Notes under the pieces: model-generated
Told to the model about the DNA's origin: nothing
The model's database searches: none
Seen by the model: only the letters and a program-made list of their open reading frames with translations
NCBI GenBank assembly: GCA_027488935.1
Contig: JAIYAP010000041.1
Coordinates: forward strand, 62,001-126,000
DNA length: 64,000 bases
From: Saprospiraceae bacterium
GTDB taxonomy: Bacteria > Bacteroidota > Bacteroidia > Chitinophagales > Saprospiraceae
Direction: 5' to 3'
Translations under genes and position numbers: made by a program
In this document: in pieces, positions 2,598 to 33,047 of the stretch
Numbering within the stretch: position 1 is the stretch's first letter
How the letters are laid out: each line of letters begins with the position of its first letter

Positions 2598-3776
2598 TTA
2601 CCAGCTATGTACATTTTCGCCCGAAATGCCGCTGAAGAGGTTGTTGCCCTGTGTCACAGAAGCAAGGGTATTGGTACGGATACAAATGCCGTGGTTGGAA
2701 CTGTTCCCCACGGTACAATGCTGAATGGTTACATTCACATTGCCCAGGGTTTTGGTGATATAGACATTGCCGGTATGGGGACTTGAACCGGTTTTGCCGC
2801 CGTCACTGATGTTACAATAGGTAAGATTAGCGAGTCCGGCATTTACTTTAATGCCTTTCCAATAACCGGCCGTCGTATTGGCTCCTTTGAAAAGGATTGG
2901 TTTCACGGGTGTTCCATTGGCAAAGAGTTTTCCCGTAGTGGCATTGTTTTGATATAGAATCAATTCGGCATCGGCACCAAAGAGCAAGGTTGCGCCCGCT
3001 TCTATCGTCACTTCATTTTCAATTTCCGTTTCTCCGCTGAACAGAAAAGCCACCGGCAAAGCAGGCCACAATCCGGATTTACGCACCTGATCGCCTTTTA
3101 CTTTTACCTGATCATGCGTATTACCGGTCAGCACGTTCGCGGTACCTGCCAATTGGCCCAGCGAATTGGCCGTAACGGACGCCACATAATCGCAATTGGT
3201 GATGGTGTTGCTGCTGAACGCACTCAGTGTACTTTCATCGTGTACATCGAGGCCCACCGAACTGCTGTTTAGTATGCGGCAGTTGGTCATAGACAATCCG
3301 GCATCGCCCAGCGTGTTACCGACCACCACAGCACCTACACCGGTGCCCGTACCGGCTCCGGCATCCTGTATGGTACAGTAATTCAATTGATTGTCCGTTT
3401 TTCCGTAAAGAACAATTCCTTTCCAAAATCCTTTGGAATTGTCTTTGCCCCTGAACACAATTGGGTCGGCGGCCGTACCATTGGCTTGCAGGGCGGTGGC
3501 GTTCATTTCCAGACTGCCATTGTTTTCAAATACGATTTCGGTACCCGGTTCGATGGTAAGCGTGGCGTTCAACTGAAACAGAATACGGCCCGTAATGATA
3601 TAATCGATACCGTTTTTGTTGTGGTTGGTCCACGTTTGTGGGTTTCCCGAATAGACTTTATTGCTAATGGCAATAGCATCATCGGCGGGCGCTTCGATGG
3701 GATCGGGTTTACAGGCCCACTGGGAGCCCAAAACAGCGAGGGTAAAAAGCAGGAGGATACTTTTTGTTAAATGCAT
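2598..3776 (-). CDS. Right-handed parallel beta-helix repeat lipoprotein
   Basis: Lipobox-like ...LGSQWACKPD; repeated G..YWKGI.../NYCTIQDAG/LTYCNISDGG beta-helix pattern. Confidence 0.7.
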   Translation of the reverse strand: MHLTKSILLLFTLAVLGSQWACKPDPIEAPADDAIAISNKVYSGNPQTWTNHNKNGIDYIITGRILFQLNATLTIEPGTEIVFENNGSLEMNATALQANGTAADPIVFRGKDNSKGFWKGIVLYGKTDNQLNYCTIQDAGAGTGTGVGAVVVGNTLGDAGLSMTNCRILNSSSVGLDVHDESTLSAFSSNTITNCDYVASVTANSLGQLAGTANVLTGNTHDQVKVKGDQVRKSGLWPALPVAFLFSGETEIENEVTIEAGATLLFGADAELILYQNNATTGKLFANGTPVKPILFKGANTTAGYWKGIKVNAGLANLTYCNISDGGKTGSSPHTGNVYITKTLGNVNVTIQHCTVGNSSNHGICIRTNTLASVTQGNNLFSGISGENVHSW

Positions 3777-3951
3777 GGCTAATCAATTTTTAGGTTCAAT
3801 CAAAAGGGATTAATGCCTTTCTATACCTAAGTGTAGCCATTCAAAAAAACATAAGTGGTCAGGAGGTTTTTTTATTTTTTTTCAGGACGACCCTCCCAAA
3901 ACGTTAGAAACTTTGGAAGGGAATCGCCCATAAAATCGATCGTAAATCGTA

Positions 3952-6900
3952 TTATCCATTGACCAGCACAAAACTTCCCCAGTAAAATGGTTGCGGATAT
4001 TTGGCTTTGAGCGTCTGTTGCGCTTTACGGAAGGCGGCTGTTTTCGACATGCCCGAAGTCCAGTTGTCGTAAAAATGCGTCATAAACAGTTCGGTCGCTT
4101 TATCTTCCACTTCCCACAGTGACATGATGAGCGATTTTGCTCCTGCAATACGAAAAGCGCGTTGCAGTCCGTAAACACCTTCGCCGTTTTGGATTTTACC
4201 CAGCCCGGTATTGCAGGCCGAAAGCACCACGAGTTCGGTTCCATCCAAGGGCAGGACGGCGGCTTCGAAAGCGGTCAGGATGCCGTCATTGCGATCGGCG
4301 GGGTGGCCATTCAGGGTGTTTTCTGCTCCGGTAAAAAACAACATCGAGCGCAAGGCAGGATTCTGCGCCGCTGCCGGACTGGCAAAACCAGGAGCATCCG
4401 TCCGTTTTTCTGCATTCAAAAAATAACCATGCGTGGCAATATGCAGCACCTTGGGGTTTTTACATTTTTTGAGGGTGTCTTCGGTCGCTTGTGCGCCCGT
4501 AAAAACAACCGGGTTCCATTTTTGGGCCGATAGTTTTTGGGCAATCTGCTCCACTTCACGCTTACTCCCCGGCAACGGCGTGAGTTTAAAATGACCACCC
4601 GCTTCTTCCAACACATCGCGGTAATTCTGATCAACCGCATCGCCAGGTCCGGATATCGCAGCATTGCCGAAAGCCGGATTGCCAAATAAGGCCGCAATAC
4701 CTGGCTCCATACCTGCATTTTCCGGACTGCGTTCGAGGATATGGCGCAGGTTGGTGACCTGGACAAGCGCCAGATTATCCACCAGATAAGATCCGTCGGG
4801 TTTGCGCAACGTACTCAGGTTCATTTTATGAAAAATACCGTCGGGTGAAAAATAAAGGGTGGAAACACCGTTGAGATGCGCGGCAATTGGTGCCCACACT
4901 TTTTCATAAACAGCCGCTGAAACATCTTTTTTACGGGAAATCTCACTTTGGTACTGACCGACCGCGAAGGATTCTATTTCATTTCCATTTTCCAGAAAAA
5001 CGAGTTCGGGACGGGTGGCGCCGGGTTTGATGATGGAAATGGCATAAATGGCTGTGTCATGAAAAGAGCCGTTTTGAAATAACTGAAAACGCATGATATC
5101 GAGGGCCGCTTCTCCTGGTTGCAGGGCATTTCGGATGGTGGTCCAATTTGCAGCCGTATCTTGCCGCACAATTGGCACCCCTTTCCGAACCAATTTTTCT
5201 TCCAGGGCTTCGGTAGTTGCCTCCATCTCCTTCAAATCCAGGCCTCTTCGGGTCGCTTCTTCGGGGGGAAACTGCAAAGCGTTGCTGAGCTCATCCCGTG
5301 ATTCCAGCCATTGATTGTATTCTTGAACGATCTGTGTATCACTGGAATTCTGCACAAAAGCCATCGTTTTACGGGTGGTATTTTCAAGAATATTCTTGAC
5401 AAACAGTTGAAGATTTATGATATCTTCTGATACATCCATATTCTTATTGCGCAGGGCAAAACTCCCCAGATGGGCGAATGCACGTAATTCAGTTTCAAAT
5501 GTTTGAAAACGTTCCCGGTCGGTAAGGGTTTGAAGGGCATCCAGGAATAGATCATGCTCCATTTTAAGGTACTCCCTGTAAGCAGCAATAGCCAGCTCAG
5601 GTTTACCCCAGTCATCGTAAAGTTGGAATTTATTCCCCAGGATATGTCCCAGCCAGCCCACCGTATTTTCCGTTTGGTAGGCGACTTCAATGGCCTGATC
5701 AAAGTACGCCGCCGCCGCTTGATAACGTTTTTCGTTGTACAAATAAAGACCTTTGCTATGTAGATAAATTACAGATTTATCACAAGAAAAATCTTTGGAG
5801 CTCAGGGCATTCTTTTCTATTTTTTCTAAAAGCGCGGCGGCGGCAGACTGCTGTTTTCTGTTGCATAGCGTTTGAGCCCACCATCCGGTAACGATGAGTG
5901 TTTGATCGGCGTCCGGTCCATAAATTTTTTCATTTATAGCGATCGATTGCTGAAAACAGGAATCTGCCTGCGCATCCATTTTCACCTCATTGTAAAGCAA
6001 TGCCAGTTCTCTGAAAATCAGTGCGTTAATAGGGTCATCCGGGTAATTGGCCTGGCAAATTCGGCGTGCTTCTTCCAGGTTCTTTATGCCTTCCCCAAAA
6101 ATTTTCAACTCCCGTTGTATGATGCCGAGCACCGAAAAAATTTCGGCTATTTCCATTTGGCTCATATCGCTTTTGCCGCTCCTTGCAATTTCCACTAATT
6201 GCTGCGAAATTGTCTCCGCCTCTTCCATCTTCCCCAAAAACTTATACAACTGGGCTAAAAGGTTCAGCGTCTCCAGATAGGAAGTACTGCCTTCCCCATA
6301 TTGCTCTTTTTTTAAAACCAGGCATTTTTTTAAGTAGGTCTCCGCTTTTTTGATCTGCAAATCCTGGAAATAGAACATCCCGGTCAAATGCAGGCACTTC
6401 AAATAATCAGGATTTAATGCATCCTTCTTTCGCTCATAGGCGCTTAAGCAATCCAAAAATGCCTGTTCTGCCAATTGCTTTTCTCCTACTTGTACCGCAA
6501 CGATGCCCAATTGCATCAGGGTTTCCAAATTATATGGATCATCCTTGCCTAAAAGTTTTTGGGTAATCGCATAAGCATTTTGCAACTGAACGAAAGCCGG
6601 TTGCAACTGGTTCGTAGCCCGGCTTACAGCACTCCATTGCCGCCATATTTTGGCAGTGGCAAGATTATCTTCAAAATGTTTTTTTTGAATAATTTCGGTC
6701 GACAGTTGCAGCAATGAATCTGCTTTTCTAAACTGCTTTTGGCGATAAGCACAAGTACCCATTTTACTCAAACCAAGCGCCCGCTCAAAACTCTCGTCGC
6801 CATTTTCAGCCTGGGCAGTCCGCTCCCACTGTTGAGCCAGTATAAAGGCCTGATCGTATTGCTTGGCAGCAATCAGCGTATCAAACTGGCCGGAATAACG

Positions 6901-30856: not shown

Positions 30857-31354
30857 ATGCATAAGATCAAAATCATCTTCACGGCGCTGTTTTTAGCCCT
30901 TTTTAGCCTTTCTGGCACTGTATTACTTGCGCAAGATGGTCCTCCACCGAAAGGCGATAAAGGCCACCGTCCACCACCGCCCCCCGAATCACAGGCGCAA
31001 ATGGAAAAACGCGAGGCCGCCGAAACGGATGAAATGTCGAAGGAACTGAATCTTTCTCCCGAGCAAAAAGCCCAGATCAAAAAAATTGATCAGGATTTTA
31101 AAGCAAAAAGAAAGGTAGAAAAGAACGAACGCCGGGAAGCCCATGAGCAAGCGCGCGCAGAACGTGTCAAAGCCCATAAAGCCGTGATGACACCTGAACA
31201 ATCTGCCAAATACGACCAGGTGCTGGCAAAACGTGAGGCGAAACACAAGGAGAAAATGGACGCGCGCCAGAAGGAAAAATCGGCCAAAAAATCGGCCAAA
31301 AAGGCACAGAAAAAAGCGGCCAAAACCCCGGAACAGGACGGAAACAAGGATTAA
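30857..31354 (+). CDS. Periplasmic LTXXQ/Spy-like protein (Lys/Glu-rich)
   Basis: Signal peptide from MHKIKIIFTALFLALF; ELNLSPEQKAQIKKIDQDFK and MTPEQSAKYDQVLAKR. Confidence 0.65.
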   Translation: MHKIKIIFTALFLALFSLSGTVLLAQDGPPPKGDKGHRPPPPPESQAQMEKREAAETDEMSKELNLSPEQKAQIKKIDQDFKAKRKVEKNERREAHEQARAERVKAHKAVMTPEQSAKYDQVLAKREAKHKEKMDARQKEKSAKKSAKKAQKKAAKTPEQDGNKD

Positions 31355-31388
31355 TTGAATTTTTGGTTTGAATAAAAACATGCGTCTT

Positions 31389-31426
31389 CCCGAATTTTGG
31401 ATTATACCGAAATTCGGGATTTTTAT
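31389..31426 (+). terminator. Rho-independent terminator-like hairpin
   Basis: cccgaattt-tggattataccg-aaattcggg followed by atttttat. Confidence 0.6.
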
Positions 31427-31450
31427 TTATTATCACGAGTATCCAGCAAG

Positions 31451-31650
31451 CCCCCCGCCGCGCTTTGGTCTTTTGACCAAGCGCATGCAACGTTCGATGC
31501 TAATCAACTTATAATCAATTTGTTATAACGCTTAAGTTCTCTCGGGAGTTGCGCGTGGTCAAAAGACCAACGCGCGGCGGCGGGGCTTTAGTGGTATAAA
31601 ACAAAGATTGAGCGCTGCGAGATACTAAGCGTTGTGGAAGAGCGGACTAC
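31451..31650. repeat. Nested-palindrome element, copy 1
   Basis: ccccgccgcgctTTGGTCttttGACCAAgcgca...gcgcgTGGTCaaaaGACCAacgcgcggcggcgggg plus tail gtggtataaaacaaagattgagcgctgcgagatac...agcggactac. Confidence 0.85.
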
Positions 31651-31683
31651 ACGCGGCAACCTCGTTTAATTCCAACAAATGCA

Positions 31684-31734
31684 TAAATTGTATTGACGGG
31701 GCGACTTTTTCAGTCACCCCGCCAATACAATTTA
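31684..31734. repeat. 22-bp-arm inverted repeat
   Basis: taaattgtattgacggggcgac-tttttca-gtcaccccgccaatacaattta, 2 non-Watson-Crick positions. Confidence 0.7.
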
Positions 31735-31842
31735 CACGTTACCACAAATCCTTTCTCGTTGTAGTGTTTACCGCTGGTAACGATCTTCACGCGCTCGATG
31801 CTCAAACGCTGAGCGTGATCTTCGTTCTTCCCACGCTCAATT

Positions 31843-32040
31843 CCCCGCCGCGCTTTGGTCTTTTGACCAAGCGCATACAACGTACGACGCTAATCAATTT
31901 ATAATCAACTTTTTATAACGTTTAGCAGCGCACGGGAGTTGCGCGTGGTCAAAAGACCAACGCGCGGCGGCTGGGTTTTAGTGGTATAAAACAAAGATTG
32001 AGCGCTGCGAGATACCAAGCGTTGTGGAAGAGCGGACTAC
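31843..32040. repeat. Nested-palindrome element, copy 2
   Basis: Same core and same ~65-bp right tail as copy 1. Confidence 0.85.
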
Positions 32041-32057
32041 TCGCCACAGAAAACCCC

Positions 32058-32783
32058 TTAATCCAACTTTTTCAAGCGACCGGAGCCGGAAATGCTCTTC
32101 GTAATTTGTGGATTCCCTTTGTAAGAAACGTCGCCGCTACCACTGATGGTGGCTTGCAGGCTTTCACTCGCCCACAGTTGCACATTGCCACTACCACTTA
32201 CGGTTACTATAGCCGTCTTCGCTGGGCAATTGAGCGCAAAAACATCGCCGCTGCCGCTTACCACCGCATTCAATTGGTCGGCCGTACCGCTGAGCGTGAT
32301 GTCGCCTGAGCCACTTACGGTTGTCCTAATTTTGGTAAAATCGGCTTTGTACACCTTTAAATCACCACTACCAGCCACATCCAGGTCCAATTGAAGGCCC
32401 TTGATGGCATCCGGTACACTTACCTTGGCGCTGCCATTTACCGCAATATTATCCCAATTGGGCGCAGAAACCAAAATTTTCAGATTGTCGACATCATACA
32501 CATTGCGGTTGAAGAAGATTTTCAGCACGCCATTGTCTTCAATGGTTTCCAGGTAGGCGATGATGTTTTCTTCGCAAGTGACTTGTACCTTATACACCGA
32601 ATCGGTGCGTACTTCCACGGTGCCTGGTACATTCACTTCAAGGGCATGAAAGTTCTTTTCATCGCGGTTTTCAGTACTCAAATCGCCCGAACCCCGGGTG
32701 CCAAGCGGGTCACAAGCGGCAAAAAGCAAACAAAAGGAAGCGGCAGCCAATAGGCAGCGGGGGACAAATTGTTTCGTTGTCAT
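32058..32783 (-). CDS. Head GIN domain (DUF2807) lipoprotein
   Basis: Lipobox-like LLFAACDP; repeated VSGSGDI/GSGDL beta-solenoid pattern. Confidence 0.85.
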   Translation of the reverse strand: MTTKQFVPRCLLAAASFCLLFAACDPLGTRGSGDLSTENRDEKNFHALEVNVPGTVEVRTDSVYKVQVTCEENIIAYLETIEDNGVLKIFFNRNVYDVDNLKILVSAPNWDNIAVNGSAKVSVPDAIKGLQLDLDVAGSGDLKVYKADFTKIRTTVSGSGDITLSGTADQLNAVVSGSGDVFALNCPAKTAIVTVSGSGNVQLWASESLQATISGSGDVSYKGNPQITKSISGSGRLKKLD

Positions 32784-32853
32784 AGCTTAATCAGTCGTTG
32801 TTGTAAAAAATAGTGTTTTTGTTTTCAGAGGAACTTTCCAATCCACGCTCAAT

Positions 32854-32988
32854 CCCCCGCCGCGCTTTGGTCTTTTGACCAAGCGCATACAACGTGCGAC
32901 GCTAATCAATTTACAATCAATTTGTTATAACGCTTAGCAGTGCACGGGAGTTGCGCGTGGTCAAAAGACCAACGCGCGGCGGCGGGGC
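32854..32988. repeat. Nested-palindrome element, copy 3 (core only)
   Basis: cccccgccgcgctttggtcttttgaccaagcgca...gcgcgtggtcaaaagaccaacgcgcggcggcgggg; left flank ccacgctcaat shared with copy 2. Confidence 0.85.
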
Positions 32989-33047
32989 TTTGACTATCCT
33001 TACGACACGCACTTCCTGGTTTTACCCTGATTCGTTTTTACCTTTTT

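Follow-up and report, generated by a model that had tools for sequence, protein, structure and literature searches.

Three REPIN-type elements with an atypical CGCC/GGCG foot beside a DUF2807 gene in a Saprospiraceae genome

The window analysed here is a stretch of 64,000 nucleotides from a Saprospiraceae bacterium (contig JAIYAP010000041.1 of assembly GCA_027488935.1), in which three copies of a palindromic element lie around a gene for a DUF2807 protein (nt 32058–32783, minus strand; PF10988, E 5.2e-46). This gene sits between the second and third copies and is a neighbour of the element, lying outside it. The copies, c1 (nt 31451–31587), c2 (nt 31841–31977) and c3 (nt 32853–32989), all on the plus strand, were found with their arms and nested hairpins at the places given by a preliminary description of the sequence. 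Each is about 137 bp in length, with 35-nt arms separated by a spacer of about 64 nt; the order is a left arm, CCCCGCCGCGC-hairpin-GCGCA, an AT-rich spacer, and a right arm, TGCGC-hairpin-GCGCGGCGGCGGGG. A covariance model built from one arm (R1) placed the left (minus strand) and right (plus strand) arms at nt 31450–31490 (52.6 bits) and 31545–31585 (54.7 bits) for c1, at nt 31840–31880 (56.4 bits) and 31935–31975 (51.9 bits) for c2, and at nt 32852–32892 (56.3 bits) and 32947–32987 (54.7 bits) for c3. The 21-mer TTGGTCTTTTGACCAAGCGCA, with up to 3 mismatches allowed, has six matches in the window, all of them inside the arms, against 0.01 expected. The inverted arms are 31–35 bp long with 91–94% complementarity, and each contains the hairpin first described, although its stem is longer than had been noted and includes one bulged nucleotide (GCGC(T)TTGGTC-TTTT-GACCAAGCGC). 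The computed fold of c1 as single-stranded DNA has an energy of -44.8 kcal/mol (z = -8.7 relative to shuffles).

Outside the core, the copies share sequence to different extents, much as initially described. Copies c1 and c2 match at 92% over a stretch of 202 nt that includes a right tail (TTTAGTGGTATAAAACAAAGATTGAGCGCTGCG...GAGCGGACTACACGCGGC; nt 31588–31654 in c1 and 31978–32044 in c2, plus strand) that is also present in a copy on contig C9 of the same genome. The left tail of c2 (ATCTTCACGCGCTCGATGCT...CGTGATCTTCGTTCTTCCCACGCTCAAT; nt 31778–31840, plus strand) is common to the C9 copy and to copies in sister species, while c2 and c3 have only the short left flank CCACGCTCAAT in common (nt 32842–32852 at c3, plus strand), which the sister genome G023 keeps as CCACGCGCAAT. 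The suggestion that these shared words belong to longer terminal inverted repeats was borne out in part: GATTGAGCG and CGCTCAAT do occur on the two sides, but their distance outward from the core is about 30 bp on the right and about 2 bp on the left, and because of this difference they are not a simple extension of the terminal repeats. Two other repeats lie close by. Between c1 and c2 (nt 31684–31734) is a member of a separate palindrome family, TAAATTGTATTGACGGGGCGACT / AGTCACCCCGCCAATACAATTTA, which has at least 20 copies in this genome, occurs also in G023, and is adjoined by copies of the present element at two loci. A terminator-like inverted repeat, TCCCGAATTTTGGATTATACCGAAATTCGGGATTTTT (nt 31388–31419), is found downstream of a gene ending at nt 31354, and similar repeats are frequent in the genus.

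The preliminary description proposed a MITE/BIME-like family, to be doubted if the genome held these three copies only. The exact 14-mer TGGTCTTTTGACCA comes close to that situation, being confined within the genome to c1–c3, but diverged copies are present at about seven other sites: BLAST and R1 together picked up diverged sequence, either arms or tails, on contigs C9, C29, C36, C51, C52 and C58, and the R1 matches amount to at least 13 arms in the genome. R1 searches scored no more than 150 candidates in each genome, and their counts are therefore minimum values. The C9 copy has both tails and a core interrupted by another palindromic insertion (L026, 1530–1760, minus strand), the ends of which are CAATGCCGTTGA and TCAACGGCATTG, together with TTTAAGATTTAAGATTACATG repeats. 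The copy on C52, a clean doublet, measures about 100 bp and has another stem, GTGCTTGGTG-AAAA-CACCAAGCAC. Across the genus, R1 found matches in 23 of 42 species, reaching at least about 50 in one genome (G022), and the spacer ranges from 2 to 164 nt, varying by species. The family is thus genuine and genus-wide. Beyond the genus, an even draw of 298 genomes from the taxonomic family gave one weak match in one genome, with few candidates scored in each, such that rare copies may escape. The initial search of relatives relied on DNA similarity and missed diverged arms, and a scan of contigs with the exact 21-mer returned one true relative, CAIVGO010000760.1 (apparently contig C760 of G023), and one isolated match in Winogradskyella. 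A dispersed family of inverted hairpin pairs with a short spacer is what defines REPINs, although the copy numbers given above stay below the usual abundance of canonical REPs (more than 100 copies per genome). The spacing of some elements at about 2 kb raised the idea of gene-cassette capture, which was rejected, as the intervening genes are ordinary and unrelated, and one pair merely encloses a RAYT gene.

Genome G023 is 89–91% identical in nucleotide sequence over the flanking genes, and was compared with the window's genome at these sites. In place of the c1–c2 stretch (nt 31451–32036) it has about 220 bp that include unrelated repeats, which suggests that this intergenic spot is a hot spot of repeat turnover; the repeats there (contig C773, L214) are of the GCAGATGTTACGCAGATG type and partly palindromic. 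At the c3 site only the left foot of the element remains, in the form CACGCGCAATCCCCTGCCGCGC-TTTGACTATCC, where the left flank and foot run into the right flank through a GCTTTG common to both. Judged from this junction, it looks like the core was lost from an ancestral copy, either by slippage or by an excision with an asymmetric footprint, as has been reported for Pseudomonas REPINs (PMC3116915). The reverse case was also seen, with an element on contig C46 of G023 and only 28 bp at the orthologous position on contig C19 of the window's genome. Neither c1–c3 nor the C46/C19 comparison gave a clean insertion whose ends could be placed unambiguously, and the differences between the sisters could be losses. 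A second pair of genomes, G007 and G008, was compared for clean empty sites, and the 16-kb region concerned proved not to be collinear.

These comparisons bear on the alternative that the copies are a structured element, regulatory or RNA, that serves the DUF2807 locus, multiplied by local tandem duplication and never part of a mobile family. The confinement of the exact hairpin to three copies genome-wide and the similarity of c1 to c2 would both fit such an origin. We nevertheless consider it improbable, given that diverged copies occur at other sites of the genome and across the genus, and that in G023 the DUF2807 locus is kept while c1 and c2 are missing and just a remnant of c3 is left. 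Furthermore, only one promoter-like site was found, terminator-like sites were no commoner than in shuffles, and the sole Rfam match was to a plant miRNA family (MIR162_2) at 36.8 bits, far under the cut-off of 103, a chance effect of the long hairpin. Local duplication, or conversion, may still be the source of the near-identity of the three copies at this locus.

The hairpins themselves are well conserved. Among 107 distinct aligned arms, 94.4% of stem cells are paired, and the covariation score is 0.254, compared to 0.092 for shuffled alignments; none of 500 shuffles reached the observed value, and all slid versions were lower as well. With an alignment fitted to the model, and shuffles that ignore relatedness, this supports a conserved stem, short of proof. 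Directly 3' of the stem is a foot, GGCG (CGCC on the other strand), whose four positions (columns 66–69) are conserved in 119, 118, 119 and 113 of 119 arms, respectively; this foot differs from the canonical GTAG (or GTGG) tetranucleotide. Stems fall into two discrete types, GGTC/GACC with a bulge (n = 60) and GGTG/CACC without one (n = 56), with a single exception, so that the loop-closing pair, G-C or C-G at about equal frequency, goes with the presence or absence of the single bulged base. Where two arms on opposite strands are adjacent, the feet point outward in 21 of 23 pairs and inward in two. An outer box resembling GAAGACCAAGCGAGGCGGAAA occurs 1–69 bp outward of 41 of 115 arms, never on the opposite strand, and is a repeat of the 3' half-stem of the hairpin plus its foot, although in tandem arrays (e.g. 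L132, L136) some outer boxes are just the next hairpin. The loops of several copies (L025, 1500–1530; L045, 1661–1725; L024, 3050–3070; L027, 2340–2360 and 4215–4235) carry short inserts (e.g. CCTGTCCCG...ATCGGG and CTGCGGGACAGG), which look like the outcome of repeated entry or growth of a second small palindrome.

A candidate for the enzyme responsible came from a weak Y1_Tnp match adjoining the element in genomes G041 and G033, which led to a 209-aa protein, P0001, with the motifs NHFHxxWQ and YIHRNP. Its sole NCBIfam match is to the REP-associated tyrosine transposases (NF047646; 71.8 bits, under the cut-off of 80), and it scores 20.9 against PF01797 (cut-off 23). The only sequence match in the PDB is 4er8, the structure of a TnpA_REP in complex with a REP hairpin, and the same entry is the best match to the predicted fold (mean pLDDT 86; E 5.6e-8). 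With an HUH motif, one catalytic tyrosine within YIxxNP and a Y1 fold, P0001 is, as predicted from sequence and modelled structure, a Y1 HUH tyrosine transposase of the RAYT/TnpA_REP kind. Homologs with 58–87% identity are encoded in G009, G021, G016, G022, G006, G031, G034 and G033.

R1 hairpins flank all eight assessable loci of this NHFH clade, and at the loci displayed the upstream arms are antisense and the downstream arms sense, which puts the feet outward. At the G009 locus (L129), for example, the gene spans 3485–4048 and the hairpins 3407–3450 and 4157–4200. The flanking hairpins score weakly at three of the eight loci (23–25 bits at G022:C215, and about 26–32 bits at G021:C12 and C13). 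No R1 hairpins were detected at 44 other Y1 loci (131 kb, one gene counted twice), even at E 0.5, nor at seven further homologs, and the difference between the NHFH clade and the other Y1 loci is significant (Fisher p = 4.5e-10). The R1-flanked genes cluster in a tree, the exact branching of which is poorly supported; the genes of G031 and G034 are accompanied by another hairpin, whose GCGGCG foot is of the same kind, and RAYT fragments adjoin elements at G022:C235, G030:C384, G015:C605 and G012:C57. A RAYT of the NHFH clade is most likely the transposase that moves these repeats. The matching TnpA-REP gene that had been sought for the element exists, with the same hairpins on its flanks, in sister species and not in this genome, which is 99.96% complete and has only a 29% homolog, situated beside other repeats. 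The four Y1_Tnp genes of the window's genome were considered as the mover and rejected, since R1 finds no such hairpins flanking any of them; three (L060, L062 and L063) have nearby repeats of their own, GACTTCGGAGAAGTC, CGTCCCGCTGGGACG and GCTTGCGCGGGGTTCCACCCCGTG.

The association with a Y1 gene weighs heavily against the next alternative, a MITE of a DDE transposon. Its terminal inverted repeats would be the outer CCCCGCCGCGC arms, which would be cut in double-stranded form, with target-site duplications as the result. Inverted arms of the length and complementarity seen here would suit such an element, but they are covarying hairpins with a conserved foot, features that DDE ends do not need, and the same ends are found on the Y1 gene. 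The target-site duplications envisaged in the preliminary description did not materialise at the c3 or C46/C19 junctions when compared with the sister genome, junctions that are not clean; such duplications are not expected from single-strand Y1 transposition. Taken together, we regard a DDE origin as very unlikely. It is hardly credible that the repeats are instead PATEs, i.e. non-autonomous IS200/IS605 ends moved by a class 1 TnpA and not a RAYT. The enzyme superfamily is the same, subterminal hairpins with a bulge are shared, and IS200-type Y1 genes are numerous in the genus; but the control set consists mostly of IS200-type DHxH loci, and R1 hairpins are missing from all of them. In addition, the motifs of the associated clade, NHFH-WQ and YIHxNP, are those of class 2 TnpA_REP and differ from the Y---Q found in class 1. 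The possibility that the repeats are integron attC sites was briefly considered and set aside.

We are therefore confident that the three copies are REPINs, each consisting of two inverted REP hairpins with feet outward around a short spacer, and that they are non-autonomous mobile elements, most likely moved by a RAYT/TnpA_REP-type Y1 HUH transposase. What was observed is the structure of the copies, the existence of a family, covariation in the stems, a cognate gene between the same hairpins, and the presence and absence of copies between sisters. That the elements are bound, cut and transposed, and that they move as single strands, we infer by analogy, the mechanism being drawn from the anatomy and from the known TnpA_IS200 and TnpA_REP systems (PMC6006769, PMC3116915). 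Each arm would fold in single-stranded DNA, such as the lagging-strand template, into a hairpin with its CGCC/GGCG foot; a RAYT/TnpA_REP dimer would recognise both folded hairpins and cut at or near the foot, and the segment would move as single-stranded DNA. A full RAYT unit has the same layout, with the transposase gene replacing the spacer. Since the cognate RAYT is absent from this genome, the copies in the window are orphans and are probably no longer mobilised, and they would now be changing by local duplication, decay and palindrome-prone deletion. A more tentative idea, for which we would not claim more than an outside chance, is that the RAYT clade has a non-GTAG recognition code made up of the CGCC foot and the outer box, where the box could displace the inner 3' half-stem from its pairing with the 5' half-stem, a strand exchange that would fix the cleavage site or element end.

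The element resembles the REPINs and RAYTs of Pseudomonas (Bertels and Rainey 2011, PMC3116915) in having an inverted pair of REP hairpins around a spacer, a doublet that folds as a palindrome, compensatory changes, and a Y1 gene flanked by the same hairpins. It differs in its foot (CGCC/GGCG rather than GTAG), in its tens rather than hundreds of copies per genome, in a spacer length that depends on the species, and in that the RAYT of the clade is missing from this genome. It is, then, a REPIN with an atypical, non-GTAG foot. Among RAYTs, the closest in kind are TnpA_REP subclass 2.6 / RAYT group 5, as described in the consulted part of Quentin et al. (2018, PMC6006769), which are from Bacteroidetes and have NHxH, WQ, YIHxNP and a conserved SS motif; these genes have atypical secondary structures on their flanks, copies of which occur elsewhere in the genome. 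Compared by motif, WQ occurs in most members of our clade and YIHxNP and SSA are present, whereas NHFH stands in place of NH[LIV]H, and the tyrosine motif is YIH[RNLKQ]NP rather than YIH[QN]NP. Since atypical hairpins flanking Bacteroidetes RAYTs of this subclass have already been published, the family belongs to a known kind; what is new is a better-defined foot and a genus-wide data set, and the consulted part of that paper mentions neither this foot nor the pair of stem types nor the outer box. Similarities exist also to the GTAG- and CGTC-tagged REPs (Di Nocera et al. 2013, PMC3733652), which are likewise short palindromes bearing a tetranucleotide tag on one side, and to the TIRtrons of the same study, some RAYT-like genes between long terminal repeats that also form genomic repeat families. 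The tag here is CGCC, and there is a dedicated transposase, while according to that paper the CGTC repeats have none. The ends of IS200/IS605 elements (IS608, ISDra2) share the HUH-Y1 fold and subterminal hairpins with an unpaired base, but the class of catalytic motif differs, and the present hairpins are spread as short doublets; no tnpB was seen beside a RAYT gene of the clade.

REP and REPIN biology has so far been mostly that of Proteobacteria with GTAG feet, and the hairpins of Bacteroidetes RAYTs, in those parts of the literature consulted, are only called atypical and were found by hand. Among the papers searched, none names both repetitive extragenic palindromes and Saprospira-type hosts. 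A searchable covariance model, a CGCC/GGCG foot motif, two stem types, a matching transposase clade and near-empty sites in sisters are now at hand, and with these, recognition by non-GTAG RAYTs becomes testable. The genome studied also gives an example of an orphan REPIN population that persists without its RAYT. A sister RAYT clade in the genus (L153, L154, L155, L171 and L172) is accompanied by another hairpin family, TTGTTGGCGTCCCCGCCAACAA, in which CGGC follows the hairpin.
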